Counted from the first letter of the stretch, positions 5,038-38,572 are shown. The stretch is DNA of 40,627 nucleotides from Burkholderiales bacterium (GCA_947475815.1 CANJOT010000007.1:1-40627); one strand, 5' to 3'. The notes: generated from the letters alone by a model not told the origin. Translations and numbers: made by a program.

Positions 5038-5065
5038 GTCGCCGTTACTCCCGTTTGCAGAGGAC

Positions 5066-6064: not shown

Positions 6065-6136
6065 AACCCGTCTCCCTCGTTGGTGATTGGGCCTGTCCGG
6101 CCCCGATCCGGCAAGCGGCGACATGCGCCGGCGCTT

Positions 6137-12273: not shown

Positions 12274-14430
12274 ATGCCTGCTGTTCCCAACACGACACCG
12301 CTGAGCCGGGTTTCTTACCGGGTCGGCATCGACATCGGCGGGACGTTTACCGACATCGTCGCCACCGGCTCCGATGGTCAGGTGTTTGTGCGCAAGACCT
12401 CGTCAACGCCGGACGACTACAGCGTCGGCAGCGCGCGCGGCGTGCAGGAACTGCTTTCCGAAGAGGGCATCCATGCCGACCAGGTCGATGTGGTGGTGCA
12501 TGCCACCACCATGGCCACCAATGCCGTGCTCGAGGCCAAGGGTGCGCGCACCGGGCTGATTACCACGGCCGGCTTTCGCGACGTGCTCGAGTTCCGGCGC
12601 GTGCGCGTGCCCGACCTGTACAACCTCGATTACGTCAAACCCAAACCTTTGGTGCCGCGTCAACTGCGCCTTGAGGTGCTCGAGCGCATGGGGCCGCTCG
12701 GTGAAATCCGTGTCGCCCTTGACGAAACCTCGGTGCGCATCGCGGCCGAACGACTCCGACAGCTGCGCGTCGAGGCCGTGGCAATCTGCCTGCTGCATTC
12801 CTATGCCAACCCGGCGCACGAACAGCGCGTCAAGCAGATCGTCGATGAGATTTTGGGCGGCTCGGTGTTCGTCACCTGCTCGCACGAAATCTTGCCCGAA
12901 ATCCGCGAGTACGAGCGCACCAGCACGACCGTGGTGAATGCGTATCTCGGCCCGGTGATGAACAACTACCTGCAGGTCCTGACACAGCGCCTCGCGGCAT
13001 TGGGCATCAACAAGTCGCTGCATGTCATGACCTCGGGCGGCGGGCAGATGAGCGTGCGCGCCGCCATGACCAAACCAGCCTACCTGGTGGAATCCGGCCC
13101 GGCCGCCGGCGTGATCGCCGCGGCTCGCGTGGCCAAGCGACTCGACCTGCTTAACATCATCACTCTCGACATGGGCGGCACCACCGCGAAAACCGCGATT
13201 GTTGAAAACGCCGAGCCGGCCAAAACCAGTGAGTTCGAGATCGGCGCGGGTATCAATCTGTCGAGCAAACTGGTGACCGGTGCCGGATATGCCATCAAGC
13301 TACCGTTCATCGATGTCTCGGAAATCGGTGCCGGCGGCGGCAGCCACATCTGGTTTGACAAGGGTGGTGCCCTCAAGGTGGGTCCGCGCAGCGCCGGCTC
13401 CGAGCCGGGTCCGATCTGTTATGGCCGTGGCGGTACGCAGGTGACCGTGACCGATGCGCTGCTGGCGCTCGGGTATATCAATCCGGACTATCTGGTCGGT
13501 GGCGCGCTCAAGCTCTCGTCAGGTGATGCGCTGGCGGGCGTGATGCAACAACTGGCCGAACCGATGTCCAAGACCTTGCACGAAGCAGCGCATGGCGCGT
13601 TGACGGTGGCGGTGGCCAACATGGTACGCGCGGTCAAGTCGGTTTCGACCTACCGCGGCCGTGATCCGCGCGAATACACGTTGATCGCCTTTGGCGGCAA
13701 CGGCCCGATCGTCGCCGCCGCCATTGCCCGCGAACTGGCCATGACGCGCGTGCTGGTCCCGCCGCACTCCGGCGTGCTCAGCGCGCACGGACTGCTGGTC
13801 GCCGACCACGAACAGGAACTGGTGCGTTCCTTCCCCGGTCGCATGAGTGAACTGACGGCGCACCAACTCAGCGAGGCGTATGAACGCCTCGTCCTTGAAG
13901 GACGGCAGGCCCTGATGGACGAAGGCTTTGACGAGGGCTTGATTCAAATCGAACGCCATGCTGACTTGCGCTATGTCGGTCAGGCCTTTGAGCTGACGGT
14001 GCCTGTGAAGGGAAGCACTGCGGGAAGCACCGCAGGAAGCACCGCGGGAAGCACAACGCCGGACCTGAACAATATCACCCAGGCCTTCCATCAGGAACAC
14101 CTGCGCACCTATGCGCACATGGCGGAGAGCGAACCGGTGGAACTCGTCAACATCCGCGTCCTTGCCCGGGTCCCTACCGCCCCACTGGCGACCAAGGGCC
14201 CTGAAAGCCGGACCGCCCCTGTTCTTGTCGAAGCCGGCGCGCGCGACGTCTACTTCGGCCCTGTCTTTGGCACCTGCAGCACGGCGATCCTCAAACGCGG
14301 CCATCTGCGCGGCGTCTGGCGCCAAGGCCCGCTGATCATCGAAGAATACGACTCCACCTGCGTGGTGCCGCCGGATGCGCAGGCCACGGTCGACGACGGC
14401 AACAACATCATCATTTCCCTGAACGGCTGA
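12274..14430 (+). CDS. Hydantoinase/oxoprolinase subunit A (HyuA-like)
   Basis: ATP-dependent amidohydrolase subunit of 718 residues. The N-terminal Hydant_A_N domain has the phosphate-binding motif YRVGIDIGGTFTDIV; the central hydantoinase A domain carries LDMGGTTAK, SEIGAGGGSHIWFD, SAGSEPGPICYGRGG and YRGRDPREYTLIAFGGNGP, all family hallmarks. With HyuB it forms an enzyme that opens cyclic amides such as hydantoins or 5-oxoproline, or in the related acetone and acetophenone carboxylases activates a ketone. Those carboxylases need extra subunits that are absent here. Residues about 580-594 contain a low-complexity insertion, three and three-quarter copies of Gly-Ser-Thr-Ala encoded by a 12-bp tandem repeat. 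The start has only a weak AGGG upstream. hyuB follows after two bases. Confidence 0.92.
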   Translation: MPAVPNTTPLSRVSYRVGIDIGGTFTDIVATGSDGQVFVRKTSSTPDDYSVGSARGVQELLSEEGIHADQVDVVVHATTMATNAVLEAKGARTGLITTAGFRDVLEFRRVRVPDLYNLDYVKPKPLVPRQLRLEVLERMGPLGEIRVALDETSVRIAAERLRQLRVEAVAICLLHSYANPAHEQRVKQIVDEILGGSVFVTCSHEILPEIREYERTSTTVVNAYLGPVMNNYLQVLTQRLAALGINKSLHVMTSGGGQMSVRAAMTKPAYLVESGPAAGVIAAARVAKRLDLLNIITLDMGGTTAKTAIVENAEPAKTSEFEIGAGINLSSKLVTGAGYAIKLPFIDVSEIGAGGGSHIWFDKGGALKVGPRSAGSEPGPICYGRGGTQVTVTDALLALGYINPDYLVGGALKLSSGDALAGVMQQLAEPMSKTLHEAAHGALTVAVANMVRAVKSVSTYRGRDPREYTLIAFGGNGPIVAAAIARELAMTRVLVPPHSGVLSAHGLLVADHEQELVRSFPGRMSELTAHQLSEAYERLVLEGRQALMDEGFDEGLIQIERHADLRYVGQAFELTVPVKGSTAGSTAGSTAGSTTPDLNNITQAFHQEHLRTYAHMAESEPVELVNIRVLARVPTAPLATKGPESRTAPVLVEAGARDVYFGPVFGTCSTAILKRGHLRGVWRQGPLIIEEYDSTCVVPPDAQATVDDGNNIIISLNG
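14011..14055 (+). repeat. 12-bp in-frame tandem repeat inside hyuA
   Basis: GGAAGCACTGCG, GGAAGCACCGCA, GGAAGCACCGCG and a partial GGAAGCACA follow one another, encoding GSTA repeats. The copies differ only at one or two positions. A flexible linker-like insertion with an expandable repeat is expected at the protein level. Confidence 0.93.
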
Positions 14431-14432
14431 CC

Positions 14433-16256
14433 ATGAGCACACCAATCTCCCAGGGCATGGCTGCCGGCATCGACCCGATCACCCTTGAAGTGATCCAGAA
14501 TGCCCTCGGCTCGATTGCCGACGAACTGGCGCTGGTCATCATGCGCTCGGCCTATTCGAACATCGTGCGCGATTCGATGGATTACTCCACCGCGGTGTGT
14601 GACCACACCGGGCGCATCATCGCCCAAGGTCTGACCACGCCGGTGCATCTGGGCTCGTTCCCGGAAGCCATGCGCAGCCTGATCCGTCAGTATGGCGGCA
14701 ACATGCAGGCCGGTGATGTGTTCATCTTCAACGATCCTTACGGCTCGGGCGGCATGCATCTGCCCGACTTCTACGTCATCAAACCCATCTTTATTGAGGG
14801 TGTCGTGGAGGGTTATGTGGCGACCCTGGCGCATCAGGCCGACGTTGGCGGCATCGCCCCCGGCGGCATGGCCGTTTATGCGGCCGAGGTTTATCAGGAA
14901 GGCCTGCGCATTCCTACCCTCAAGCTGTACGAAGCGGGTCGGCTCAATGAAGCTATCTTCAGGCTGATTGAAAAGAACTCCCGCCAGCCGGTAGAAGTAC
15001 TGGGCGATATCCGCGCACAGCTGGCCGCCTGCGGCAATGGCGAGAAGGGTCTGCTTGGTCTGATCAACCGCTACGGCACGGCCGAGTTTCGCCGTTATAC
15101 CGAAGAGTTGCACGACTATGCCGAGCGCCTGATCCGCGCGGAAATCCGCGCCTTGCCCGACGGCATTTACGAGTATGAAGACTTCTTTGATGGTCTGGGG
15201 GAACAGCCCGAACCCATCCGCTTCAAGGTGACGCTGAAAATTGAAGGCGACCAGATTCACATTGACTGGACCGGCACTTCAAAACAGGTCAAGGCGGCCA
15301 TCAATGGCCCCATGCCGACCACCTACGCCATGGGTTATCTGGCGGTGCGCTGCGCGCTCGGCACGGCCATTCCCAGTTGCGAAGGTTACATGCGTGCCAT
15401 CACGGTGACGGCGCCCAAGGGCTCGATCGTCAACCCCGATGAGCCGGCGGCCTGCGGCGCGCGCGGCGTGATCTGTTTTCGCATGTACGACACCATCCTT
15501 GGCGCCTTCTCGAAAATTCTGCCACACCGTATCCCCGGGGCCAATGAAGGCGGCTCTTCCGCGCCACATATTTCCGGGCGCCGTGCCGGCAACAACAAGC
15601 CGTTTCTGGTGTCGGGCGGACTGATGGGCTGCTGGGGTGGCAGTGCAGCACGCGATGGACAGGAGGGCATTTCCAATCCGGCCGCCAATCTGGGCAACAC
15701 ACCGATCGAACTGCTCGAGTCGCGCCATCCGGTGGAAGTCACCTGTTACGCCTTTGTGCAAAATTCGGGCGGACCCGGCAAACATCGCGGCGGGGTGGCA
15801 CTGAAACGCGGCTACCGCCTGCTCGAAAAAGAAGCCGAGCTGATCATGCGCTCCGACCGGCGCGACGTATTGCCCTACGGCCTGTCCGGCGGCATGCCCG
15901 GCACGCCCTCATGGAACCTGATCAACCCGGGCGCCGATCAGGTCATCCTGCCGACCTGCCCGATGAAAAGCACGCCGCTGCTTCAGGGTGATGAGTTCCT
16001 GCACATCCAGGCGGGCGCGGGTGGGTTTGGCGAACAACTCGAACGCGATCCGGACAAGGTCTTGATCGATGTGATCAACGAATTGATGACGGTCGACTAT
16101 GCCGCCGATGTGTACGGCGTGGTCATCCAAGGCGAGACGGTTGACCTGAGCGCCACGGCCCATCTGCGTGAACAGCTCGCCCAGAGCGGTTCCTGCCGGA
16201 GCGCATACCTGAGCCACTTCTACCGCTCGGTTGGCATCAAGCCAAAGCGGCAATAA
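14433..16256 (+). CDS. Hydantoinase/oxoprolinase subunit B (HyuB-like)
   Basis: Partner subunit of 607 residues, family hydantoinase B. Recognisable stretches are DPITLEVIQNALGSIADELALVIMRSAYSNIVRDSMDYSTAVCD near the N-terminus, FIFNDPYGSGGMHLPDF, ATLAHQADVGGIAPGGM, and late GGPGKHRGGVALKRGYRLLE and SDRRDVLPYGLSGGMPGTPS. These are seen in HyuB and in the catalytic side of related acetone-type carboxylases. The gene starts two bases after the hyuA stop, so the two subunits are made together. With the LysR gene upstream and the transporter operon divergent, a role in using a cyclic amide that yields an amino acid is reasonable but unproven. Confidence 0.93.
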   Translation: MSTPISQGMAAGIDPITLEVIQNALGSIADELALVIMRSAYSNIVRDSMDYSTAVCDHTGRIIAQGLTTPVHLGSFPEAMRSLIRQYGGNMQAGDVFIFNDPYGSGGMHLPDFYVIKPIFIEGVVEGYVATLAHQADVGGIAPGGMAVYAAEVYQEGLRIPTLKLYEAGRLNEAIFRLIEKNSRQPVEVLGDIRAQLAACGNGEKGLLGLINRYGTAEFRRYTEELHDYAERLIRAEIRALPDGIYEYEDFFDGLGEQPEPIRFKVTLKIEGDQIHIDWTGTSKQVKAAINGPMPTTYAMGYLAVRCALGTAIPSCEGYMRAITVTAPKGSIVNPDEPAACGARGVICFRMYDTILGAFSKILPHRIPGANEGGSSAPHISGRRAGNNKPFLVSGGLMGCWGGSAARDGQEGISNPAANLGNTPIELLESRHPVEVTCYAFVQNSGGPGKHRGGVALKRGYRLLEKEAELIMRSDRRDVLPYGLSGGMPGTPSWNLINPGADQVILPTCPMKSTPLLQGDEFLHIQAGAGGFGEQLERDPDKVLIDVINELMTVDYAADVYGVVIQGETVDLSATAHLREQLAQSGSCRSAYLSHFYRSVGIKPKRQ

Positions 16257-21675: not shown

Positions 21676-21697
21676 CAGCCGGCAATACCGCAGCAAT

Positions 21698-21731
21698 AAA
21701 AAAGGGGATCGTCGCCGATCCCCTTTTTTTT
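21698..21731. terminator. Strong bidirectional intrinsic terminator
   Basis: AAAAAAGGGGATCG, the loop TCGC and CGATCCCCTTTTTTTT form an eight-base GC-containing stem flanked by A-run and T-run. It separates the convergent Bug receptor genes 4 and 5 and suits termination in both directions. Confidence 0.93.
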
Positions 21732-21744
21732 CGTCATGTGAAAC

Positions 21745-22701
21745 TCAGTCAAGCTTGATATTGCGGCTGCGGATGATGCCGCCCCACTTCACCAGTTCGC
21801 CCTTGAGGAAGGGGGCAAAATCCTCGCGACCCAGCATGGCCGGCTCAAGGCCAATGCGGATGATTTCATCGCGCAGTTCTGGCGTGGCAAGCACGTCCTT
21901 AAGGTCTTTCTGAATCTGCTCCTGCAGTGCCGCGGGTACCTTGGCCGGTACGAAAAATCCAAACCAGCTGGCCGACACAAAACCCGGCATGCCCATCTCC
22001 GCAGTCGTCGGCAGATTGGGGGCGGCAATCAGGCGCGTCGGGTTGGCGACGGCGATGGTTCGCATCTTGCCTTCCTTGGTATGTTGCAGTTGCGCCGAGG
22101 TGCCCCAGTAGCCATGAATGCGGCCACTCATCATGTCGATCATGGCCGGCGGACTGCCCTGATACGGCACGTGCGTGATCTGCATGCCGTTGTCGGCAGC
22201 AAACAGTTCGGCCGTCAGGTGCGGGCTCGAGCCAATACCGGCCGAACCAAACATCATCTCGCCCGGGCGCGCCTTGGCATAGGCCACCGCTTCCTGCAGG
22301 GTCTTGATCGGCAGGCCACCGCTGACATACAACATCAGCGGCGAATTGGCGACGCGGAGGAGCGGCGTCAGCGAGGCCGGATCATAGGGCAGCGGCGTCG
22401 AGCCGAACTGGCTGGTGATGTAACCAAAGCTGGTCAGCAGCACGGTGTAGCCATCCGGTGCCGCACGCGCGGTCAGATCGGCGCCGAGCACGGCGGCCGC
22501 ACCGGGACGGTTTTCGACAATGACGGGCTGCTTCCATTTGGCTGACAGGCGCAGGGCAATGGCACGCGCGACCAGGTCACCCTCGCCACCCACGCCATAC
22601 GGGTAGATGATGCGCACCGGTTTGTTGGGGAAAGCCTGGGCAAAGGCGGTCTGTGCCAGCAGGGAACAGAGAAGAAGTAAGAGTACTCGCAGGTATTTCA
22701 T
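21745..22701 (-). CDS. Bug/TctC-family periplasmic solute receptor (5)
   Basis: Bug-type receptor of 318 residues from the ATG at 22701. The ORF track runs to 22827, but residues before MKYLRVLL have no signal-peptide character, while LLLLLCSLLAQTAFAQ after it is a textbook one; the ribosome-binding site is weak. Family marks are KPVRIIYPYGVGGEGDLVARA, NRPGAAAVLGADLTARAAPDGYTVLL and THVPYQGSPPAMIDMMSG. It is the last gene of the CoA-transferase cluster, 142 bases after receptor 6, and ends at the strong terminator. Ligand unknown, perhaps the acid processed by the upstream CoA enzymes. Confidence 0.9.
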   Translation of the reverse strand: MKYLRVLLLLLCSLLAQTAFAQAFPNKPVRIIYPYGVGGEGDLVARAIALRLSAKWKQPVIVENRPGAAAVLGADLTARAAPDGYTVLLTSFGYITSQFGSTPLPYDPASLTPLLRVANSPLMLYVSGGLPIKTLQEAVAYAKARPGEMMFGSAGIGSSPHLTAELFAADNGMQITHVPYQGSPPAMIDMMSGRIHGYWGTSAQLQHTKEGKMRTIAVANPTRLIAAPNLPTTAEMGMPGFVSASWFGFFVPAKVPAALQEQIQKDLKDVLATPELRDEIIRIGLEPAMLGREDFAPFLKGELVKWGGIIRSRNIKLD

Positions 22702-22791
22702 GTGTTGTGGCCCCGTTGTTGTTCTTGAAAGCGCGCCATCGCCTTGGTCCGCACCAGACTGCGCACCGAGATCATAAACCTTTCGAACGCG

Positions 22792-22818
22792 CACGGCGAT
22801 GACCAGAGCATCGCCATG
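22792..22818 (-). other. Hairpin between two Bug receptor genes
   Basis: GGCGAT and ATCGCC pair around nine bases, and the stem can be extended by GCA/TGC with one wobble pair. It follows receptor 6 on the minus strand. No U-run is visible, so this could attenuate rather than end transcription into receptor 5. Confidence 0.3.
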
Positions 22819-22843
22819 CACCGGCAAGCTTGCCCGCCTGCGC

Positions 22844-23833
22844 TTATTCCACCTTGATGCCGATGTCCTTGACCAGCTTGCTGTAACGTCCGATTTCGGT
22901 TCGCATCATCGTTTCGAACTGCTCGGAGCCGAGGCCGGCCGGCTCGACACTTTGTGCCAGCATCAGGTCGCGCACTTCCTTGATCTGCACCACTTTCGCA
23001 ATGGCTGCATGCAACTGGGTCACAATTTCCTTGGGCGTCCCACGCGGCGCGAGAATGCCAAACCAGTTGTTGAACTCGAAGCCGGGCACGGTCTCGCCGA
23101 TGGTCGGCGTATCAGGCGCCATCATCGAACGGTTCGTGCCGGTTACCGCGATCAGGCGCAGCTTGCCGGCATTGACCAGCGGCATGGCGGCGACCAGACT
23201 GGTAATGGTGGCTTGCACCTGACCGCCGATGACATCATTGACCGCAGGCACCGTACCTTTATACGGCACGTGTACCATCTTGATGCCCGCCATGCCATTG
23301 AGCATCTCGGTGGCCAGATGAAGCGAGCCGCCGTTGCCGGCCGAGGCATAGTTGAGCTCGCCGGGCTTGCGTTTGGCCAGATCGATCAGATCCTTCATCG
23401 TGCGCACCGGCACATTCGGATTGGTCACCAGGATGTAAGTTGAAAACGCCACCAGAGTCACGGGCGTGAAGTCGCGCAGGGAATCGTAGGGCAGCTTGCC
23501 GTTGGTCGCGGCATTGGTGGTGAATGAGGTGGTAACCAAACCGAGGGTATGACCATCGGAAGCGGCCTTGGCAATGTAGTCAGCGCCGATGACGCCCCCT
23601 GCCCCCGCGCGGTTCTCGACGATGACCCCACGCTTCCAGGTCTCGCCCAGGCGCTGTGCGAGCAGGCGCGCCACAAAATCAACTGTACCGCCCGGCTCGG
23701 TAGGCACAACAATGCGCACGACCTTTGAAGGAAATTCCTGAGCCTGCACCAGCGCGCCAGACAGCATCAGCACACCGGCAAACCCGAACCTGCATATCAT
23801 GAGTCGCAGACCCATCTTGTTGTTGCTGTTCAT
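22844..23833 (-). CDS. Bug/TctC-family periplasmic solute receptor (6)
   Basis: Bug-type receptor of 329 residues. The signal peptide (RFGFAGVLMLSGALVQAQ) precedes KVVRIVVPTEPGGTVDFVARLL, NRAGAGGVIGADYIAKAASDGHTLGLV and VHVPYKGTVPAVNDVIGGQVQATI. The start ATG follows GGGAGAG, which is the end of the isochorismatase-like gene; the two genes are one base apart (TGACATG). This ties the receptor tightly to the CoA-transferase operon, so it is the best candidate for the receptor of the operon substrate. Confidence 0.92.
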   Translation of the reverse strand: MNSNNKMGLRLMICRFGFAGVLMLSGALVQAQEFPSKVVRIVVPTEPGGTVDFVARLLAQRLGETWKRGVIVENRAGAGGVIGADYIAKAASDGHTLGLVTTSFTTNAATNGKLPYDSLRDFTPVTLVAFSTYILVTNPNVPVRTMKDLIDLAKRKPGELNYASAGNGGSLHLATEMLNGMAGIKMVHVPYKGTVPAVNDVIGGQVQATITSLVAAMPLVNAGKLRLIAVTGTNRSMMAPDTPTIGETVPGFEFNNWFGILAPRGTPKEIVTQLHAAIAKVVQIKEVRDLMLAQSVEPAGLGSEQFETMMRTEIGRYSKLVKDIGIKVE

Positions 23834-23834
23834 G

Positions 23835-24422
23835 TCACTCTCCCAGAGTAGCGATCAAGTCGGTGGACTGAACGACGTCCGCCTGGCGTGGAAAAATCTT
23901 CTGACACAAAAAATCATGCACGGCCGCGTCCTGATCGGCACAACAGTCTTCCACCACCAGAACGCGCAAGTCCATGTCTGCCGCATAACGGCTGGTCGAC
24001 AGCACCACTCCGCTGGTGGCGTAGCCGAGCAGGACAAGTGTGCGAATCCGGTGGGCACTAAGCACGATCGGCAGGTCGGTGCCGAACAGCGCATTGACGC
24101 GCCGCTTGCCGACCACCACCTCATCGCCGGCCGGCCGCAGCGCCGGGTGTATCAAGGTCAGAGGATCAGCGACCGCGGGGTTGCCAGACAGCTTGCGCGG
24201 CACCAGAATCTTGTTGTAATCGCCAATCTCGGGATAGCCCGGACGAAACACCGTCGCCGAATAGCAGACCAGCAATCCTGCCTTGCGTGCCGCCTCGCGC
24301 AGACGCACCGTGCGCGCCAGACATTGCCGGTCGACCGCGTGAGGAAGGCTGCTCATGATGTCGGCATAGCAGTCGCCGATCAGCAGCGCGGTGGAGCCCT
24401 TGTCAAGTTCTATTGCTGCCAT
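23835..24422 (-). CDS. Isochorismatase-fold hydrolase-like protein lacking the nucleophilic Cys
   Basis: 195-residue protein from the ATG at 24422, which is preceded by an excellent AGGGAGGAG; the ORF-track start at 24470 is less likely. The isochorismatase/cysteine-hydrolase fold is recognisable: D17 of the triad (ALLIGDCYAD), K106 (VVGKRRVNALFGTDL) and the nucleophile loop GYATSGVVLSTSRYAADMD. In active amidohydrolases the loop has Cys where this protein has V139, so the standard thiol chemistry should be absent. Homologues reading ATSGVVLST are familiar to me as annotated cysteine hydrolases, so it is probably a real subfamily and not a mutation. It sits between CoA-transferase 1 and receptor 6. 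Confidence 0.85.
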   Translation of the reverse strand: MAAIELDKGSTALLIGDCYADIMSSLPHAVDRQCLARTVRLREAARKAGLLVCYSATVFRPGYPEIGDYNKILVPRKLSGNPAVADPLTLIHPALRPAGDEVVVGKRRVNALFGTDLPIVLSAHRIRTLVLLGYATSGVVLSTSRYAADMDLRVLVVEDCCADQDAAVHDFLCQKIFPRQADVVQSTDLIATLGE

Positions 24423-24471
24423 CCTGCTCCTCCCTGTTATCGGTGATCCAGCGCGACGCCCGCGCAGCATC

Positions 24472-25704
24472 TCACGCCCGCGGGGGCGCCCATCCGGTAC
24501 CGACCTGCGTCAGTACCGCAACCACGCCCGCCGCCTGCAATACTGCACATTCAGGTTCCTGATACCCAATGGAAGCGAGCACCGCCATGGTGTGCTCGCC
24601 AAGCAGTGGCGGTGGCAACTCACCCTCCAGAGGCGCGCGCTGATGCGGCAAAGGCAGGTTGGGCAAGTCAAATTGATGTTGGGCGTAACCAAGACGGGCA
24701 AGCTTGCCCGGAACCTGCGCCTGGGCTTCATTGAGCACCTGATCGGAGGGTTTGATTTCCGTGAAGCCGACGCCCGCGTCACGCAACCGGCTGGACAACT
24801 CAGCCAGCGGCAGTGCGGCAACCGCCGTCTTGACGATCAGTTCCACCTCGGGCCGGCGTTTTTTTCTGGAGCGCGAGGTCGTCAGCGTTTCGTCGTGTGT
24901 CTCTGCAGGAACCAGCGCATCGCAGAACTTCTTCCAGTGACCATCACTGAGCATGAGCAGATAGACCCAGCGGCCATCCGCCGTTTCATAGGCGCCATAA
25001 CCGGGTGCGCTGAACTCGCCTGGATCCGCCCCTGCACGGGCCACCACGCCAAGCTGAGCCTTCAGCTGATCACCGGCATAATCGCGCGCCGCAACATGCA
25101 AGCCGGTTTCATACAAGCCAAGCTCAACACAGCGCGCATCGACATCATCAACTGGCGCCTGCAAGGCAGCGAGGATGCCGATAACCGCATACGAACCGGC
25201 GAACTGGTCATGGTACGAAGGCCCGAGACGTGTCGGTCGGCCATTGATGCGATGGCCAAACATGACCCCGGTCGAAGCCTCAATCACCGGATTGGAAGCG
25301 AGTTCGTTTTCCAGCGGGCCGCTGCCATATCCCTGAATGTGGCAATACACCACGCCTGGATTGACGCGCAGGCAGTCCGCCCGGGTGACGCCCAGCGCGC
25401 GCGTTGAGGCTGGCGAAAGATTGTGCAACACGACGTCGGCACTGGCGATCAGGCGCATCAGAACAGCCTGACCTTCACTGGTCTTGAGATCAATGCAGAC
25501 ACTCTGCTTGCCGCGGTTGTAGGCGAGAAAGGAGCCGCCCGCACCGCCACGCGTGGTGGTGCGCGTTGGATCGCCGGCCGGTGGCTCAACCTTGATCACC
25601 TCGGCACCCAACTGTGCCAGCAGATGGCCGGCAAAGGGCGCCGCCAGCATGGTGCCCAGTTCGATCACACGACGGCCTGCAAGGACAGGATGTTGCGCGG
25701 CCAT
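24472..25704 (-). CDS. CaiB/BaiF family III CoA-transferase (1)
   Basis: Family III CoA-transferase of 410 residues, the usual size. N-terminal features are VIELGTMLAAPFAGHLLAQLGAEVIKVEPPAGDPTR and NRGKQSVCIDLKTSEGQAVL. The catalytic Asp, which forms an aspartyl-CoA mixed anhydride in formyl-CoA transferase, is D166 in the SYHDQFAGS motif. Such enzymes move CoA from a donor thioester to an acceptor carboxylate. The ATG overlaps the previous gene stop (TGATG), so it is coupled to CoA-transferase 2. Substrates cannot be predicted. The Frc/CaiB-type core is intact, so this and CoA-transferase 2 are likely the active enzymes of the trio. Confidence 0.95.
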   Translation of the reverse strand: MAAQHPVLAGRRVIELGTMLAAPFAGHLLAQLGAEVIKVEPPAGDPTRTTTRGGAGGSFLAYNRGKQSVCIDLKTSEGQAVLMRLIASADVVLHNLSPASTRALGVTRADCLRVNPGVVYCHIQGYGSGPLENELASNPVIEASTGVMFGHRINGRPTRLGPSYHDQFAGSYAVIGILAALQAPVDDVDARCVELGLYETGLHVAARDYAGDQLKAQLGVVARAGADPGEFSAPGYGAYETADGRWVYLLMLSDGHWKKFCDALVPAETHDETLTTSRSRKKRRPEVELIVKTAVAALPLAELSSRLRDAGVGFTEIKPSDQVLNEAQAQVPGKLARLGYAQHQFDLPNLPLPHQRAPLEGELPPPLLGEHTMAVLASIGYQEPECAVLQAAGVVAVLTQVGTGWAPPRA

Positions 25705-26921
25705 CAGTAGATGACCTTGTCAGCCACCAGCGCTTCGATCTCGTCGCGCGGCAGTCCGAGCAACTCGCCAAACACATAGTCGTTATGTTCGCCCATATGG
25801 GGCGACCAGCCGGTAGTGCCGGTCTGCGAACGCGAAAACCTCCAAGGTGCGCCAACCACTTTGCGCGTCTCGCCATCCGGTCCGGTCAGGGTCTGGATGG
25901 TGCCGCGTGCGGCAAGGTGCGCATCGTTGCACAGGTCGGCACCATGGTAGGACGGAAAAGCCGGCACACCATGCTGTTGCAGCAGACGCGTCACCGCGTC
26001 ACGGTCGTGTGTCACCGTCCATGCGGCGATCTCGCGGTCGAGGGCTGCCCGATGCGACCAGCGTCCAGCGCCATCGGCGTAACGTGCGTCTGCCAGCCAG
26101 TCGGGCCGCGCCAGCGCGCGCGCCAGCCCGGCCCACTCCTGATCGGAGCCAACCGCAATCGATATCCAGGCATCGTCACCAGCACAGGGGTAAACGTTGT
26201 GAGGTGCCATGCCCCAGGCGTCGTTGCCCTTGCGTTGCGGCACCTCGCCGGTCGCGGCAAACTGCAACAGCGCATCGCCAATGAACGAAGCCGCCACCTC
26301 ATTGGCAGACATGTCGACGTGCGCGCCCTGGCCTGTGCGTTTACGCCGGTAGCATGCCGCCAGCACCGGCGAGAGCGTAGTGATGCCGGTGAGATGGTCC
26401 ATCATGTGACGCATTTCGACCGGCGGACCATCCTGATATCCAGTCAATGTACCCAGTCCACCCGTGGCGCCAAATACCGGAGCGTAGCCCGCGTAACTAC
26501 GCTCGGGCCCGGTCTGACCCGAAGCCGACACCGAAACCATGATCAGATCCTGTTTCACCGCCCTGAGTGCCTCATAGCCCAAGCCAAGACGCTCCATCAC
26601 GCCGGGACGGAAAGATTCGCACATGATGTCGCTGACCGCCACCAATTGGCGCGCCAGTGCCACGCCTCGGGGATGTTTGAGGTTCAGTTGCACCGACAGT
26701 TTATTGGCGGCCACCTGTGCAAACGTCGCTACCCCAACACGGCCATAGACCGGATGCGGTTTGCGAAACGAGTCCAGCCGCAGGCCGGTTTCCACCTTGA
26801 TGCATTCGGCACCGAGCAGCGCCAGCAGGTGGGCACAATACGGACCGGCGGCACGGGCGGTAAAATCGGCCACGCGCAGTCCAGCCAGAGGCTTTCGGGA
26901 TGTCTGCTGTTTGTCCATCAT
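25704..26921 (-). CDS. CaiB/BaiF family III CoA-transferase (2)
   Basis: 405-residue family III CoA-transferase. It opens with LAGLRVADFTARAAGPYCAHLLALLGAECIKVE, and the catalytic Asp is D175 in RHMMDHLTGI. The stretch NLKHPRGVALARQLVAVSDIMCESFRPGVMERLGLGYEAL is typical for the family. The ATG shares one base with the stop of CoA-transferase 3 (TAATGATGG), and AGGTGG lies inside the end of that gene, so translation is coupled. The order and lengths of the three genes suggest heteromeric assemblies, as known for benzylsuccinate CoA-transferase BbsEF, or successive CoA transfers. Confidence 0.95.
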   Translation of the reverse strand: MMDKQQTSRKPLAGLRVADFTARAAGPYCAHLLALLGAECIKVETGLRLDSFRKPHPVYGRVGVATFAQVAANKLSVQLNLKHPRGVALARQLVAVSDIMCESFRPGVMERLGLGYEALRAVKQDLIMVSVSASGQTGPERSYAGYAPVFGATGGLGTLTGYQDGPPVEMRHMMDHLTGITTLSPVLAACYRRKRTGQGAHVDMSANEVAASFIGDALLQFAATGEVPQRKGNDAWGMAPHNVYPCAGDDAWISIAVGSDQEWAGLARALARPDWLADARYADGAGRWSHRAALDREIAAWTVTHDRDAVTRLLQQHGVPAFPSYHGADLCNDAHLAARGTIQTLTGPDGETRKVVGAPWRFSRSQTGTTGWSPHMGEHNDYVFGELLGLPRDEIEALVADKVIY

Positions 26922-28147
26922 TACACCACCTGCTCACGGGTCCAGCGTTCGAGGTCGGCTGGAGAGTGTCCCAGCCATTCACACAGCCAGCGGGCGTTGT
27001 CGGCGCCGGGTTGCGCCGGACAGGGCAATAACGCCGCAGGCAAATCATGCTGAAACGGTGCGGTCAGTACCGGCACGACGCCCGCGCCCGAAAATTTTAA
27101 GGGTGTGAACATGGCGCGCGCCTGCGTTTGCGGCGAGGCCATGATTTCGGCAGGTTCAGCATATTTGGCGATCGGCACGCCGAGCGCCTGGCCACCGATC
27201 ACCAGTTCGCTGACCTTACGGTCTTTTGCCCAGGCACGCAGATGGGCATTGATTTCCGGGCCCCGACGGCCGCGTTCGATTTCGTCCTTGAGCCCGGGAT
27301 CCTTGCTCCACTCGGGTTCACCCATCAGTTGAATCAGACCGGCCCACTGGCGTGGCTCGAGGGTCAGGATCTGCACATAGCCATCCACACACTCCAGCAC
27401 GCCGCCATACCGGAACGAACGTCCGGCGCGGTTTTCTATCACCCCATCGCCCACACGCTGCACATTGAAGCAGCTGATGGCGACGTTGGCGTCCTGCTCG
27501 GACACGTCAACAAACTGGCCGCCGGTTTCGTCCTGCACCAGCAGTGCCGTCAGGATGCCCGCAGCCGCCGAGGTGCCGCCTACCAGCGCCGCGAAATGAC
27601 CATAAATTTTCACTGGCGGTCGCTCCGGAAACAGTTCGAGTGCCAGACCGTTGGGCATCAGGTAACCTTCGCCACCGGAGTGGAAAACATTAAGCTCATG
27701 AGCCACATAATCACGCCAGGGACCGGTCGCGCCAAACGGAAGTACCGACGCATAGATCAGATGGGCATAGCGTGCCGTCAGATCCTCCGGATCAAGACCA
27801 AGCGCGGGTCGCTCCGCAGGACGCGTGTCATCAATGAAAATGTCGGCACGCGCCAGCAGTTCGCCCAGCAGGACCTGTCCCGCCGGCTGGGCAAGATCCA
27901 GCGTGAGACTGCTCTTGTTGACATTGAGATAGTTGAACAGCACGCTGCCATCAGCGCCCATCGATGGCAAAGCCTGTCGCATCGGATCGCCCTTGCCCGG
28001 CGCCTCGAGTTTGATGACCGTGGCGCCCATCAGGGCGAGGATGCGCCCCGCATACGAAGCCGCCACGTCAGCGCCGTGCTCAACCACGATCACGCCGGTC
28101 AATGCCGGCTCGTCCGGATTTCCTTGATGGTGCGTCCCATCCGCCAT
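26921..28147 (-). CDS. CaiB/BaiF-like protein (3), catalytic Asp replaced by Ala
   Basis: 408-residue member of the CaiB/BaiF family: GVIVVEHGADVAASYAGRILALMGATVIKLEAPGKGDPMR at the N-terminus and NVNKSSLTLDLAQPAGQVLLGELLARADIFIDDTRP next. Where the other two have an Asp in HxxDxxxG, this one reads YGHFAALVGG, so the position is Ala (A186 or A187 depending on alignment). Without this Asp the standard aspartyl-CoA intermediate cannot form. A structural or CoA-binding partner subunit is the simplest reading. A good GGGGAAGAC precedes the ATG, and the hydratase gene ends 30 bases upstream. The fold call is secure; the inactivity is inferred. Confidence 0.93.
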   Translation of the reverse strand: MADGTHHQGNPDEPALTGVIVVEHGADVAASYAGRILALMGATVIKLEAPGKGDPMRQALPSMGADGSVLFNYLNVNKSSLTLDLAQPAGQVLLGELLARADIFIDDTRPAERPALGLDPEDLTARYAHLIYASVLPFGATGPWRDYVAHELNVFHSGGEGYLMPNGLALELFPERPPVKIYGHFAALVGGTSAAAGILTALLVQDETGGQFVDVSEQDANVAISCFNVQRVGDGVIENRAGRSFRYGGVLECVDGYVQILTLEPRQWAGLIQLMGEPEWSKDPGLKDEIERGRRGPEINAHLRAWAKDRKVSELVIGGQALGVPIAKYAEPAEIMASPQTQARAMFTPLKFSGAGVVPVLTAPFQHDLPAALLPCPAQPGADNARWLCEWLGHSPADLERWTREQVV

Positions 28148-28177
28148 GTCTTCCCCCTGCCCGCTTGCGGGCGCTGC

Positions 28178-29377
28178 TCAGCGTATTTGTGCCAGGCCCA
28201 GCTCGAAACTACCGTCAATCACCGGTCTGTGCGCCAGGTCTCTGGACGGTAACATCACGGTCGCAATGCCGGGCGCGGTGATTTCGCCACGCTGGTTTTC
28301 GGCCCAGATCTCAAGGTCGACCAGAGCGTAGCCATCCTTGGCGTACTTGCGCGCCACCTTGCCCTTGAGCCAGGTGGTATCGCCGACAATGTTGAACTTG
28401 CGGATCTCGCCACGGATACGTTTGAGGAAAGCGGCATCGCCCATCCAGTTGCTTACCAGGCTGGTCATCCAGCTCATGCGGCCCGGGCCATAATCGTAGG
28501 CCGAGGGCGCGCCCGACTTTTGCGCCGTCGAGGCGTCGGAATGACCGGCGCCGGTATATTCGATGCCACCGCCACCGGCCTTGCGAAAATAATGACCGGG
28601 ATGGCGCTGCGCCTGCATCAGGATCAGGCCATGCGTCAGACCGCGGCCGACGCCGACATTGATGCCCTTGAGATCGGTGGCCGTTAGCGGCCCGCGCGCA
28701 ATGGTGTCGAGTTCTTCACCCACCTGCACGTCCTGCCAGTAACGGATCTTGCCGCCGCGGATGCAGTTAACCTCGTCAAGTTCAACCGCCTCGATCCGCT
28801 CCATTTCCTCGGCGCTGTACTGATAGGTACGAATGGACTCATGTTTGCCCGACGAACGCGCTGCGCGCCGCTCGTGTCGCGTGCACCAACCGAGCACCCG
28901 AGCCATCAGTTCGTCGCGCTGGTTGATGAAGTTGGCCTCGACATACTGAATCACAAGGCGACCGGAAAGCGTGCTTTTCTTTTCTTCGACACCAACCACG
29001 CGCTCGACACAATTCATGCGGTCACCCAGGCGCCAGGTGCGGAAGAATTCCCAATCATTACCAGCAAAAAAACCATGTACGCCCGGAAAACCCCAGCGTG
29101 TGCGGCCGATGTATCCATAAGCCATCGGAATGGTCGGATGTCCGACCAGCACCGAATGACGGCTGCGGCGGGCCGCTTCCATGTCACGGAACAGAGGATT
29201 GAGGTCACCGATGCCATTGCAGTAATTGCGCATGGTGTCATAGGTCAGATCCTGAATGAACGGCCCCTCCGGACGCAGGTAGGAGCCGACCATGGCCCGC
29301 GCGGCGGCCAGCGACTCTTCGGTGATGCGCGCCTCGGCCGGGCCGTTTTCAGTGACCGCTTGAATATCGTCTGACAT
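28178..29377 (-). CDS. Double-hotdog acyl-CoA hydratase (MaoC/FAS1-like dehydratase)
   Basis: 399-residue protein with two hotdog domains. The N-terminal FAS1-like dehydratase half (about 40-190) has YCNGIGDLNPLFRD, where the His of the usual GDxNPxH motif is Phe. The C-terminal half (about 225-390) has the EYTGAGHSDASTAQKSG segment with a HxD pair, then YDYGPGRMSW, NWMGDAAFLKRI and FNIVGDTTWLKGKV, a pattern common in these two-domain hydratases. They hydrate or dehydrate acyl-CoA thioesters; the second half is therefore the probable active one. The GAGGGGAACAAG ribosome-binding site supports the start. It is the first gene of the CoA-transferase operon, divergent to a LysR gene 144 bases away. 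Confidence 0.88.
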   Translation of the reverse strand: MSDDIQAVTENGPAEARITEESLAAARAMVGSYLRPEGPFIQDLTYDTMRNYCNGIGDLNPLFRDMEAARRSRHSVLVGHPTIPMAYGYIGRTRWGFPGVHGFFAGNDWEFFRTWRLGDRMNCVERVVGVEEKKSTLSGRLVIQYVEANFINQRDELMARVLGWCTRHERRAARSSGKHESIRTYQYSAEEMERIEAVELDEVNCIRGGKIRYWQDVQVGEELDTIARGPLTATDLKGINVGVGRGLTHGLILMQAQRHPGHYFRKAGGGGIEYTGAGHSDASTAQKSGAPSAYDYGPGRMSWMTSLVSNWMGDAAFLKRIRGEIRKFNIVGDTTWLKGKVARKYAKDGYALVDLEIWAENQRGEITAPGIATVMLPSRDLAHRPVIDGSFELGLAQIR

Positions 29378-29425
29378 GTCTTGTTCCCCTCATGTTTATT
29401 GGATCCGGTCCGGAATTGAAATTTA

Positions 29426-29444
29426 TCCTTAGTGACCGCAAGGA
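29426..29444. promoter_or_regulatory. Candidate LysR operator (interrupted palindrome)
   Basis: TCCTT and AAGGA flank nine bases (TCCTT-N9-AAGGA), containing the T-N11-A core typical for LysR-type regulators. It lies in the 144-base space between the divergent hydratase and LysR genes, 49-67 bases upstream of the hydratase start codon. This is a prediction from symmetry and position. Confidence 0.5.
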
Positions 29445-29521
29445 AAAAGATACCATCGCAAATTGATAAGAACAAATCATGATTTATTTACTTAGCATTC
29501 AAAAAAATGAATGGATAAGGC

Positions 29522-30472
29522 ATGAAAAACATCACCCTTAAGCAGCTGCGCATCTTTGCTACCGTAGCCCGGCAGCTCAGTTTCACGCGCGCTGCAAATG
29601 CGCTCTCCCTAACCCAGCCGGCGGTGTCGACACAGATCCGAGCTCTCGAAGAGTCACTCGTTTCAAGACTGTTTGACCGCGTCGGCCGCAGCGTGCAACT
29701 GACCGAAGCCGGTGTCAGGCTGTTGGCCAGCGCCGATGAAATCGAGCATGTACTCGAACAGACCTTCGAGTCACTGGCCGGGCTGCGCGACGTGAAAATG
29801 GGCACACTCAAGGTTGGCGCAATCCACACAGCCAACTACTTCGCCGCCTCGCTGGTCAATGCCTTTGCCGCCCAGCACTCGGCCATTACCGTCCGGTATA
29901 CGGTCGACGCCACCCCAGAGATCATCAGCCAACTCGTACAGAGCCAGACAGAGCTGATCATCATTGGCAGAGCCCCCACCAACATCAACATCGTCGCCGA
30001 GCCGTTTGCGAAACATCCTTATGTGATCGTTGCACCGCCCGATCATCCGCTCGCCCGATCGCGGCGTGTGCCCCTGACGCGCCTGTTCCGCGAGCGCCTG
30101 CTGTCGCGCGAGCCTGGCGCCGCGGCTCGACTGATCATGGAAAACCTGGCGCTCGAGTGCGGGCTGCCGCATCAGCCCGTGCTGGAGACATCGAGCAACG
30201 AAACCATCAAGCAGGCCGTCATGGCCGGTATCGGCATCGGCTGCATCTCGCGCCACACCATCAGTCTGGAGCTGCTCACCGGCAGGCTGGTGATGTTGCA
30301 CGTCGAAAAATTCCCGGTGATCCGTGACTGGTATGTGATCAACCTGCGCGACCGCCGGCTCTCGCCTGTGGCTCAGGCCTTCCGGCAATACCTCACCACG
30401 GATGGCGCTGCGATCATTGAGCGCGTTCTGGGCAAAGACCTTGAGGGACAGACAAAGCGGACCAGGGCCTGA
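29522..30472 (+). CDS. LysR-family transcriptional regulator (2)
   Basis: 316-residue LysR-type regulator. The helix-turn-helix (residues about 4-62) reads ITLKQLRIFATVARQLSFTRAANALSLTQPAVSTQIRALEESLVSRLFDR, and the effector domain has GTLKVGAIHTANYFAASLV and VAPPDHPLA. The similarity to CbbR/CysB-type members of the family is general only. It is divergent to the seven-gene CoA-transferase cluster and followed by the MmgE/PrpD gene on the same strand, so it most probably controls the cluster in answer to the operon substrate or a CoA ester. AAGG lies close before the ATG. Confidence 0.93.
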   Translation: MKNITLKQLRIFATVARQLSFTRAANALSLTQPAVSTQIRALEESLVSRLFDRVGRSVQLTEAGVRLLASADEIEHVLEQTFESLAGLRDVKMGTLKVGAIHTANYFAASLVNAFAAQHSAITVRYTVDATPEIISQLVQSQTELIIIGRAPTNINIVAEPFAKHPYVIVAPPDHPLARSRRVPLTRLFRERLLSREPGAAARLIMENLALECGLPHQPVLETSSNETIKQAVMAGIGIGCISRHTISLELLTGRLVMLHVEKFPVIRDWYVINLRDRRLSPVAQAFRQYLTTDGAAIIERVLGKDLEGQTKRTRA

Positions 30473-30587: not shown

Positions 30588-31943
30588 ATGACGCCAACCA
30601 CCGAACTGCTCGCCCGTTTCGTCACCTCCACCAGCGTCGACGCCCTGCCCGCCGTGACGCTGGAACGGGCCAGCATGAGCATCGCCAGTACCATCGCCAG
30701 CGCGGCCATGGGCCACGACATCGAGTCCAGCCGCATCATTCGCGACATAGAGATCGACAACGGCGGCAAGGCGCAGTCGTCGGTCTGGTTTGAAAGTGCC
30801 CGCCTGCCCGCCGCGCATGCTGCCCGCATCAACGCCGTCGCCAGCGACGCCGCCGCCTCGGACGACAGCGACCTGCGCAGCATCGCCCACATCGGTACGG
30901 TGGTATCCAGTTCTTCGGTGGCCATGGGCGAAGCGCTGGGGCGCACGGGGCGCGAGGTGCTGCACGCCATGGTGCTCGGCTATGAAGTGGCTGGTCGGGT
31001 CGATGAAGCCCTCACGCCGATCCGCGGCCAACGCGGCTTTCACGGCTGTATCTCAACCATTTTTGGCGGCGCCGTGGCAGCGGGTACGCTGCTCAGACTC
31101 AACACGCAACAGATGACCTACGCCATCGCCACCGCAGCCACCTCGATCGGCGGCATTTACATTGCCGCCAATACCAGCTGGGCACGCGAATATCACGCTG
31201 GCCTGTCTGCCATGCTTGGCATCAATGCAGCGCTCGCGGCGAGCCGTGGTTTTATTACCGAGCCGGTCGTGCTCGACGGGCCAAAAGGATTTTTTGCCTT
31301 GTTCGGTGGTCAGGCGCTTGAGGACGTAACGCGTGATTTCGGCCAGTCCTGGGACATTGCTACCGACATGGCCATCAAGCTCATGCCGGGTGCGCACCCG
31401 TATCACGCGATCGCCGAAGCAGCCATCGATGCGGCGACCGAAGGCAACGTCAATCCGGCCGATGTCGCGCAGATCATGATCTCGGCGGCCCAGCACAGCA
31501 ACTGGCACGGTCCTACCCATCCAACCGACCTGATCGGCGTGGCGCACAGCATTGTTTATTTTGTCGCCGCCTGCGTGGCCGACCGCAGGTTCAGCTGGGA
31601 ACACGTCACCCAGGAAAAAATCAATGATCCGGTGATTCGCGGCCTGCTCGACAAGGTCGTGTTCGATCCGAATCCGACACCCCTGCCCGACCGCTTTCCG
31701 CACCGCCATGGCGGCACGGTCATCATCACGATGAAAAACGGCCAGAAATTCTCGAACACCTGCAAGGCACCGCGCGGTTCGGGACCGCGTGGCGTGGAAT
31801 GGGCGGATGTCGATGCCAAGTATCGCCACCTCCTTCCCCTGTCCGGCCTGCCCGGCGATCGCATCGAAGAAAGCCTGCACACCATCCACGGACTGGCTGA
31901 TCTGCCGTCCATTGCGACACTGACCAGCCAGTTGCGCAAATGA
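30588..31943 (+). CDS. MmgE/PrpD-family protein
   Basis: 451-residue MmgE/PrpD-family protein, the group that includes 2-methylcitrate dehydratase, cis-aconitate decarboxylase and iminodisuccinate epimerase. The ATG at 30588 follows GAGAAGAA; the ORF-track start at 30402 lies inside the LysR gene. Typical elements are [17 protein letters not shown] near the N-terminus, the [17 protein letters not shown] helix, [39 protein letters not shown] and the [18 protein letters not shown] segment. The gene follows the LysR gene after 115 bases and may supply a step in the same acid pathway. Substrate not determinable from sequence. Confidence 0.9.
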
Positions 31944-35329: not shown

Positions 35330-36718
35330 TCATGAAACCTTGTTGATCGGAAAACTCTTGACGTATTCGGCCGCCTTGCTGGCGTCGAATTCCTTGCCCA
35401 TGATCCTGAACTTCGGGCTGGCGCCTTCGGGATACTTCATGCCCAGCTCTTTCATGGTTTTTTTGGCGTCGGTCAGCAAAAATACCTTGTCGGCGATCTG
35501 CTTGTAATTGACTTCGCCCTTGATGTAACCCCAGCGTTTCATTTGCGTGAGGATCCACACGGCCATGCTGTCCCACGGCATCGGGTCAAAATCGGCGCGA
35601 TCGGGCACGGTCTTGATGTTGCCAAGACCGTCGGCGAACTTGCCGGTCAGCACCTGCGCAATCACTGCCTCCGGCTGATTGAGATATTGGGTCGGCGCAA
35701 TCACCTTGGCGATCAACTCGCGGTTTTTCGGATCGCGCGCCATGGCCGCCGAATTCAATACCGCACGGTACAGGGCGGCGAAGGTGTTGGGATTCTTCTG
35801 GATGAATTCGGTGCTCGTGCCAAACGCGCAGCAGGGATGGCCGTTCCACAGGTCCTTGGTGAGCAGGTGGATGAAACCCACCTCGTCATAGACGGCGCGC
35901 TGGTTAAATGGATCGGGTCCGAGGAAACCATCGATGTTGCCGGCGCGCAGGTTGGCCACCATTTCAGCCGGCGGCACGACCCGCAACTGCACATCGGTAT
36001 CAGGGTTCAGGCCTGCCTCGGCAAGGTAATAGCGCAGCAGGAAATTATGCATGCTGTATTCAAAGGGAATGGCAAACTTGAAACCCTTCCAGTTTTTGGG
36101 ATCGCGGTTGTCCTTATGTTTGAGCGACAGGGTGATCGCCTGACCGTTGACGTTCTGGATGGTCGCAACGTTCATGGGAGTGGCATTCGAGCCCAGACCC
36201 ATCGAGATGGCCAGCGGCATCGGGCTCAGAAAATGCGAAGCGTCGTATTCCTTGTTGATCATCTTGTCGCGAACCAGAGCCCAGCCGGCGGTCTTGTTCA
36301 ACTCGACGTTGAGCCCCTGCTTACGATAGAACCCAAGCGGATGGGCCATGATCAGGGGCGTGGCGCAGGTGATCGGAATGAAGCCGATTTTCAGGTCGGT
36401 CTTTTCCAGCTTGCCCTTTTCCTGGGCCATGGCCTGCAGGCTTGCCAGCGGCAACACGCTGGCAATCGCCGCCATGGCGGTGCGCTGGCCGACGGCGCGC
36501 AGGAAATTGCGGCGCGTGCGTTCTTCCGGGAACAGGGCACGTACCGCCGCCGCTTCGATGAAGTCGCGTGACATCACCTCGATGTCGCTGGCCCGGCTGG
36601 CCATCGCAGCGGCGGAAGCCGCATCGTGCTCGGCATTGCTGGCATGCTGGCCACAGGCGCAGCCGCCCAGGCGCGATACCGTGGAGTACGGACGGCAGAT
36701 GTTGTCGTCTTCATTCAT
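35330..36718 (-). CDS. Cyanate/nitrate-type ABC transporter receptor, twin-arginine exported
   Basis: 462-residue substrate-binding protein of the NrtA/CmpA/CynA group from the ATG at 36718; the 36787 start of the ORF track has no support. A 68-residue N-terminal extension with two close Cys (GGCACG) precedes a twin-arginine signal at residues 69-70 (RRNFLRAVG, then AMAAIASVLPLASLQAMAQ), so export is probably by the Tat route. Mature-domain landmarks are LKIGFIPITCATPLIMAHPLGFYRKQGLNVEL, the VPPAEMVANLRAGNIDGFLGPDPFNQRAVYDE segment and WNGHPCCAFG, common in nitrate/cyanate/bicarbonate receptors. Neighbouring cynS argues for cyanate. A promoter is expected in the 115 bases upstream, but I see no clear one. 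Confidence 0.9.
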   Translation of the reverse strand: MNEDDNICRPYSTVSRLGGCACGQHASNAEHDAASAAAMASRASDIEVMSRDFIEAAAVRALFPEERTRRNFLRAVGQRTAMAAIASVLPLASLQAMAQEKGKLEKTDLKIGFIPITCATPLIMAHPLGFYRKQGLNVELNKTAGWALVRDKMINKEYDASHFLSPMPLAISMGLGSNATPMNVATIQNVNGQAITLSLKHKDNRDPKNWKGFKFAIPFEYSMHNFLLRYYLAEAGLNPDTDVQLRVVPPAEMVANLRAGNIDGFLGPDPFNQRAVYDEVGFIHLLTKDLWNGHPCCAFGTSTEFIQKNPNTFAALYRAVLNSAAMARDPKNRELIAKVIAPTQYLNQPEAVIAQVLTGKFADGLGNIKTVPDRADFDPMPWDSMAVWILTQMKRWGYIKGEVNYKQIADKVFLLTDAKKTMKELGMKYPEGASPKFRIMGKEFDASKAAEYVKSFPINKVS

Positions 36719-36805
36719 GATGGCAGGGCCTCGAAGGTAAGATGAGAAAGGTGGTTGGAGAGCACGTGCAGGACAGATCCGGGGCAAGCAAGATCAATGC
36801 AAGGT

Positions 36806-37994: not shown

Positions 37995-38005
37995 TGTCAC
38001 GCTCC

Positions 38006-38572
38006 TCAATCGGCCAGGTTGATGGTGAACGGGATCGGATTGCGCATGCTGTTGGCAACCGGCGAGTAGAAATTGGCCTGCTGCACAATCTCATTGAGCA
38101 CTTCGCGCGCTGCATCGCCCTCCACCAGCACCTTGACGCGGATCGCCTGAAAGCCCATTTCGGCAGATTGTTTCTGCGCGCCGCCAGCGCCCCACGCAGC
38201 GGGATTGCCGATGTCGCCTTCAAGGAATACTTCCAGCCGGCTGAGCCTGACCTGCTTCCAGGTCGCCACGGCCGTGATGCCCACGGCCAGGCATCCGCCA
38301 AGGCCGGACAGCACGATCTCACCGGGTGCGGGAGCCGTGTCCTGACCAAACAGATGGAGCGGCTCGTCGACCACCACAGGCTGATGGTTGCCGACCTGAC
38401 TGAGCGAGCGGTACTGGCCTTCCATGACCGTGTGCACCTTGTTGGTGCCACGGCTGGCCGGGTTGTTGCGGCCTTTCTCGGCGAAGGTACTCAGGCCAGC
38501 GGGGTCGATGGGACGCAGCCAGGTTTTGACAGTCGTGACGGGTACGGCCGAATCAGCGCTGGTGATGGACAC
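38006..38572 (-). CDS. OsmC-like protein lacking the second active-site Cys
   Basis: 188-residue OsmC/Ohr-family protein. The first conserved Cys is C94 (GLGGCLAVGITAVATWKQV), and the C-terminal motif normally CPVxNT reads SPVANSMRNPIPF, so S170 replaces the resolving Cys. Classical OsmC/Ohr enzymes reduce organic hydroperoxides with both Cys, so either a one-Cys mechanism or a ligand-binding role is expected. The N-terminal 50 residues are slightly longer than usual. It ends 11 bases before the chosen GTG of the acyl-CoA-dehydrogenase-like gene, and the two probably share a transcript. Confidence 0.85.
   Translation of the reverse strand: MSITSADSAVPVTTVKTWLRPIDPAGLSTFAEKGRNNPASRGTNKVHTVMEGQYRSLSQVGNHQPVVVDEPLHLFGQDTAPAPGEIVLSGLGGCLAVGITAVATWKQVRLSRLEVFLEGDIGNPAAWGAGGAQKQSAEMGFQAIRVKVLVEGDAAREVLNEIVQQANFYSPVANSMRNPIPFTINLAD

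Follow-up and report, generated by a model that had tools for sequence, protein, structure and literature searches.

In a 40,627-nucleotide stretch of DNA from a Burkholderiales bacterium (GCA_947475815.1, CANJOT010000007.1:1-40627; hereafter, the window, with positions counted from its first letter), we analysed a seven-gene operon (21745-29377, minus strand) that encodes a MaoC-fold hydratase-like protein, three homologues of family III (CaiB/BaiF) coenzyme A (CoA) transferases (CoAT1, CoAT2 and CoAT3), an isochorismatase-fold protein and two Bug (TctC) periplasmic receptors. CoAT1 and CoAT2, the former without and the latter with the catalytic aspartate (Asp), are most likely the two chains of one hetero-oligomeric enzyme, a conclusion in which we place considerable confidence. 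For the operon as a whole, we lean towards a regulated catabolic unit that takes up a substituted C4/C5 dicarboxylate, activates it with CoA drawn from succinyl-CoA and then hydrates it, CoAT1 and CoAT2 forming the two-chain transferase. The operon, its folds, the Asp loss, the conserved pairing, one gene fusion and the downstream genes linked to it in relatives are read directly from the sequences; from these we infer the physical association of the chains, the CoA donor, the substrate and the order of steps.

A predicted two-chain CoA-transferase

All three transferase homologues matched PF02515 (236-338 bits, against a cut-off of 23.3); naming them by NCBIfam was rejected, as every named family fell far under its own cut-off. 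The catalytic Asp was kept in all 69 homologues of CoAT2 (25704-26921, minus strand; Asp175) and in all 23 of CoAT3 (24472-25704, minus strand; Asp166), a separate family III transferase, and was absent from all 69 homologues of CoAT1 (26921-28147, minus strand), which carried glutamate (Glu; 41), serine (12), alanine (7), glutamine (6), cysteine (2) or glycine (1) at that column, the window copy having Ala187. CoAT1 was therefore filed as a non-catalytic homologue, and we propose that it serves as the non-catalytic subunit beside a catalytic CoAT2. In Shinella lacus (L046), the two are joined in one open reading frame (ORF) with no ambiguous bases, the amino-terminal half lacking the Asp and the carboxy-terminal half bearing it. 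A second apparent fusion (L050) was set aside because of adjoining Ns and a broken frame.

The same pairing recurred genome-wide. Among the 75 CaiB domains of the window's genome with a residue at the catalytic column, 9 lacked the Asp, and all 8 of these that lay off contig edges adjoined an Asp-bearing partner, versus 8 of the 66 Asp-bearing domains that adjoined another Asp-bearing one (Fisher P = 8.5 × 10−7); a second, independent genome from the same order (G040) gave 9 of 10 Asp-less domains so paired versus 2 of 53 Asp-bearing ones (P = 2 × 10−8), with 6 of the 9 pairs within one ORF, both tests counting domains as independent where some pairs are related by descent. The Asp-less domain came first in 16 of the 17 pairs from the two genomes.

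The best solved relative of CoAT2 (205 bits) was 9fn0_B, the Asp-bearing chain of benzylsuccinate CoA-transferase, BbsEF, which uses succinyl-CoA on a substituted succinate in anaerobic toluene degradation (PMC10818641). In that structure, chain B carries the Asp and chain A lacks it at the same alignment column. Together, the split of the Asp between the chains, their conserved pairing, the L046 fusion, the genome-wide pairing and the BbsEF precedent argue for one enzyme made of CoAT1 and CoAT2, so that the operon would hold two transferase activities, not three.

Single ORFs with two CaiB domains were also seen on contigs C80 and C164 of the window's genome and on contigs C4, C6, C8, C15, C16 and C19 of G040, some with the Asp in both halves and others with an Asp-less amino-terminal and an Asp-bearing carboxy-terminal half. 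A further Asp-less/Asp-bearing pair in the window's genome (C47:15946-18402) has an active-site stretch like that of BbsEF chain B (GTGTNYPDH) and is possibly an aryl- or alkylsuccinate CoA-transferase.

Conservation and spread of the core

A genome scan with the hydratase as query returned 79 loci. The order hydratase-CoAT1-CoAT2 (hereafter, the core) was kept in 70 of these, counting the L046 fusion; a CoAT1 homologue lay downstream on the same strand in 69, and CoAT2 almost always came immediately next. The gene set is thus not due to chance, as judged from this conservation. Core carriers were found among the alphaproteobacteria, betaproteobacteria and Chloroflexi (named sequenced carriers include Agrobacterium, Cupriavidus, Bradyrhizobium, Novosphingobium and Salipiger), with the core on annotated plasmids of Cupriavidus, Agrobacterium and Salipiger and transferase identities in proteobacteria mostly at 46-66%. 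The transferase pair occurred in 2 of 200 sampled Rhizobiaceae genomes, fused in only one, which points to a patchy accessory trait.

Around the core, content was more variable. An isochorismatase-fold gene was present in ~50 related loci and a CoAT3 ortholog in ~28, CoAT3 elsewhere being placed away from CoAT1 and CoAT2. In the nearest betaproteobacterial relatives (L039, L042 and L044), hydratase-CoAT1-CoAT2-CoAT3 was followed by isochorismatase, MmgE/PrpD and Bug genes in varying order; L040 lacked the isochorismatase gene at that position. Pairwise distances of CoAT1, CoAT2 and the hydratase correlated with one another at r = 0.91-0.94 and with those of CoAT3 at r = 0.68-0.81. The L042 record, a metagenome bin, is titled Bordetella parapertussis, a name that seems doubtful beside its relatives. 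The window's genome itself holds a near-copy of the core (contig C124, L118) and a further close hydratase copy (contig C149, L119), both cut by contig ends.

Operon structure and component genes

The seven ORFs lie on the minus strand at the positions assigned by an earlier reading of this DNA from the sequence alone (hereafter, the sequence-only reading), and Pfam bears out the fold that it named for each (FAS1_DH, CoA_transf_3 three times, isochorismatase, and TctC twice). The five tight junctions that it described (one-base overlaps or gaps of at most 49 bases) were likewise recovered: 30 bases separate the hydratase from CoAT1, the CoAT1/CoAT2 and CoAT2/CoAT3 junctions are one-base overlaps, the isochorismatase-fold gene begins 1 base (ATG 24470) or 49 bases (ATG 24422) after CoAT3, the latter start being favoured by its better ribosome site and a length agreeing with homologues, and a one-base gap leads to the first Bug gene (22844-23833, minus strand; PF03401). 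The sixth junction measures 142 bases, counted from the likely ATG 22701 of the second Bug gene (21745-22701, minus strand; 318 amino acids; PF03401; start placed by sequence) rather than from TTG 22827.

Some 15 bases past the stop of this gene lies a hairpin that carries a run of T (21692-21732, minus strand; −22.2 kcal/mol, z = −5.8 on folding), a strong predicted Rho-independent terminator shared with a convergent third Bug gene, which supports one transcription unit, likely running from 29377 to about 21700. An automated terminator scan did not include this hairpin among its results, probably since the stem takes in the T-run. At the other end, an intergenic, presumed promoter region (29378-29521) divides the operon from the divergent LysR-type regulator expected there (29522-30472, plus strand; Pfam HTH_1 and LysR_substrate), whose score as CbbR-like (274 bits) is under the 450-bit cut-off. 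Just as the sequence-only reading had it, the operon contains no ligase. Its view of the operon as one that takes up an acid, activates it with CoA and hydrates it is a fair one, with the Bug receptors weak evidence on the substrate; the surplus of CoA-transferases that it noted is largely accounted for, CoAT1 and CoAT2 looking like the subunits of one enzyme, which leaves two activities; and its naming of a hydratase holds for the fold (MaoC, FAS1_DH), with the activity a prediction.

This hydratase-like protein (28178-29377, minus strand; 399 amino acids; PF13452) was placed by profile and fold search. Its AlphaFold model (mean confidence score, pLDDT, 88.8) is a double-hotdog MaoC fold, for which the best Foldseek matches were MaoC dehydratases, the mesaconyl-CoA hydratase MeaC (8hgn) and the itaconyl-CoA hydratase PaIch (8huc/8khg). 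By sequence, it falls outside the Ich hydratases, and a single-sequence search of the PDB gave no significant match, PaIch being in the library searched.

Across 53 sequences aligned at the catalytic columns of the isochorismatase-fold protein (23835-24422, minus strand; 195 amino acids; PF00857), the Asp was present in 51 of the 51 with a residue there and the lysine in 52 of 53, and the cysteine position held glycine in 50 of 53. Of the Asp-Lys-Cys triad of cysteine hydrolases, Asp and Lys are therefore kept, and the Cys nucleophile is replaced by Gly. The 3.9-Mb genome of the window shows extreme paralogue expansion: CaiB gave 85 matches and Bug (TctC) at least 150 genes, set against only five TctA permeases; among so many, Bug neighbours say little about the substrate.

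Beyond the LysR gene lies an MmgE/PrpD family gene (30588-31943, plus strand; PF03972, 2 × 10−39) that the sequence-only reading did not list. With the MmgE/PrpD genes that form part of related operons it shares only 26-28% identity, which ruled it out as their ortholog, and its active-site Lys is replaced by Arg; a link to the operon is possible.

Substrate and proposed pathway

Genes for an Ich-like protein and a lyase adjoin the core in ~36 related loci. The Ich-like gene encodes a separate protein of 284 amino acids (244 bits to PaIch). The lyase is closest (152 bits) to an acyl-CoA lyase of Pseudomonas aeruginosa that is presumably the citramalyl-CoA lyase; against NCBIfam RipC/Ccl, the lyases score 138-164 bits, under the cut-off of 375. 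The combination of ict, ich and ccl does not occur in the window; ich- and ccl-like genes lie on contig C73 of the same genome (L187, 1240-12195), together with thiolase, family I CoA-transferase and pyruvate carboxylase genes, a cluster that is a candidate for an itaconate-type pathway. Itaconate CoA-transferase uses succinyl-CoA, and MmgE/PrpD members of known function act on 1,4-dicarboxylates (PMC12290011), although the MmgE/PrpD copy of the window diverges from its relatives. From the Ich- and lyase-like neighbours, the C73 genes and this preference of MmgE/PrpD members, a substituted C4/C5 dicarboxylate is the favoured substrate, at roughly even odds. In relatives, clusters also hold lactonases of two unrelated folds (metallo-beta-lactamase fold in alphaproteobacteria and SMP-30 in Cupriavidus), pointing to a lactone as the precursor in part of these relatives, along with a short-chain dehydrogenase/reductase (SDR) and an NAD(P) oxidoreductase.

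Under the pathway that we propose, the Bug receptors may bind the acid, most likely of the itaconate, methylsuccinate or alkylidene-succinate type, or a precursor of it. The hetero-oligomeric CoAT1-CoAT2 enzyme would then move CoA from a donor, probably succinyl-CoA, onto the acid, with Asp175 of CoAT2 carrying the covalent intermediate, and the MaoC-fold protein would add water to, or remove it from, the resulting enoyl-CoA. CoAT3 would supply a further transferase activity, on a different acid or at a different stage, and the Cys-less isochorismatase-fold protein would probably perform non-thiol hydrolysis or serve as a scaffold. Ich-like and citramalyl-CoA-lyase-like enzymes, encoded on C73 here and adjacent in many relatives, would finish the route to acetyl-CoA and pyruvate.

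Alternative explanations

Several observations weigh against this pathway. Substrate, complex and activity are all inferred; only one clean CoAT1-CoAT2 fusion was found; the operon itself has no Ich or lyase gene; and shared inheritance alone can produce a distance correlation between linked genes. The Asp-x4-His motif is incomplete in both hotdog domains of the hydratase, with a conserved Asp58 in the N domain only and a conserved His279 in the C domain only, so that hydratase activity is predicted rather than read from a motif. This split arrangement is also present in most aligned paralogues, and the missing His was thus ruled out as a special loss. Glu serves as a nucleophile in family I CoA-transferases, and its presence at the CoAT1 column in 41 of 69 homologues makes activity there formally possible, the window copy having Ala. 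That Glu, along with a CaiB and Bug expansion that fits broad scavenging, is what favours three independent transferases in a scavenging operon for several substrates, each for a different acid and CoAT1 using another residue. Yet the residue at the column changes freely among E, S, A, Q, C and G, CoAT1 adjoins CoAT2 in nearly all orthologous loci and is once fused to it, and the same pairing holds genome-wide in two genomes, which together render independent action improbable. We consider it less probable still that the pair are acyl-CoA isomerases or racemases, such as 2-methylfumaryl-CoA isomerase or alpha-methylacyl-CoA racemase: these belong to the same Pfam family and match weakly, but with scores far under those of the transferase relatives (68-91 versus 205 bits) and also far under curated cut-offs.

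Where Bug and CaiB genes are so extremely common, members of such vastly enlarged families might be expected to line up by chance and share no pathway; core order, however, is kept across phyla and on plasmids between transferases of the divergence given above, so that chance is already refuted for the core and very improbable as a whole, and may still account for the two Bug genes. Compatible with the dicarboxylate pathway, and a narrower form of it, is the idea that the core handles a larger precursor (lactone-derived, or an alkyl- or aryl-substituted dicarboxylate) upstream of an itaconate-type module. We entertain this tentatively: the lactonases, SDR and oxidoreductase of relatives' clusters, the bulky substituted succinate (benzylsuccinate) taken by the closest solved relative of CoAT2, and a core that stands without Ich or lyase both here and in the closest relatives all point that way, but the window operon has no lactonases and the relatives' genes are assigned by annotation.

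Comparison with known systems

Both the enzyme families and the two-chain design of a family III transferase, with the Asp missing from one chain, are known. In Chloroflexus, two family III gene products (SmtA and SmtB) are needed for one malate CoA-transferase activity, and DddD, the dimethylsulfoniopropionate CoA-transferase/lyase, has tandem CaiB domains, one of them catalytic, in a single polypeptide with lyase activity. Like BbsEF, CoAT1 and CoAT2 are homologous family III chains encoded together, one without the Asp; CoAT1, however, is not specifically nearest the chain without it (its scores against 4ed9, 9fn0_B and 9fn0_A are similar), and the operon has no BbsG-like dehydrogenase and a MaoC-fold protein rather than a crotonase-type hydratase, the family of BbsH. 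No bbs genes were seen among the annotated window genes, which were given no dedicated test for them. With the itaconate/methylsuccinate cluster of Pseudomonas and Cupriavidus (ict, ich, ccl, mmgE and mcd; PMC12290011), the operon and its relatives share the logic of a CoA-transferase, a MaoC-fold hydratase and a CitE-type lyase, the last of these and an Ich-like gene beside the core in relatives and MmgE/PrpD near several copies; the operon differs in its two-chain transferase, its isochorismatase-fold gene, its lack of Ich and Ccl, and a hydratase distinct from, and longer than, Ich (about 275-284 amino acids).

In the open literature searched (subscription literature lay outside the search), we found no description of the gene set, of its spread, of the isochorismatase-fold partner that lacks the Cys or of the genome-wide pairing rule, nor a paper on the BbsEF structure. 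No cluster of homologues whose substrate is established came up there either, so that the main finding which would have refuted the sequence-only reading was not made. In some environmental bacteria, few enzyme families are as expanded and as little understood as the family III CoA-transferases, with 62 in one family across five SAR202 genomes (PMC5395668). To read part of this seeming surplus as paired subunits gives a different picture of such genomes and suggests a simple rule: an Asp-less CaiB usually lies directly before an Asp-bearing partner. More speculatively, and with less than even confidence, the core (often with a Cys-less isochorismatase-fold protein, lactonase, Ich and Ccl) may mark an undescribed, plasmid-borne and patchy pathway for lactone-derived or substituted dicarboxylates, and non-catalytic CaiB subunits may be a general, conserved way of diversifying substrate range in bacteria with expanded CoA-transferase families.

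Other genes in the window and in related clusters

Elsewhere in the window, an SMP-30/gluconolactonase gene adjoins a Bug gene (4138-6124, minus strand); an SMP-30 gene also adjoins the Cupriavidus core (L188), in which cluster a DUF2889 protein (14028-14609) adjoins the lyase. The window further encodes a YcaO protein with a YcaO_C domain (2349-4061, minus strand), a hydantoinase/oxoprolinase A and B pair (12274-16256, plus strand), and an NMT1-type binding protein adjoining an acyl-CoA dehydrogenase-like gene (35330-36787 and 36834-38009, both minus strand).

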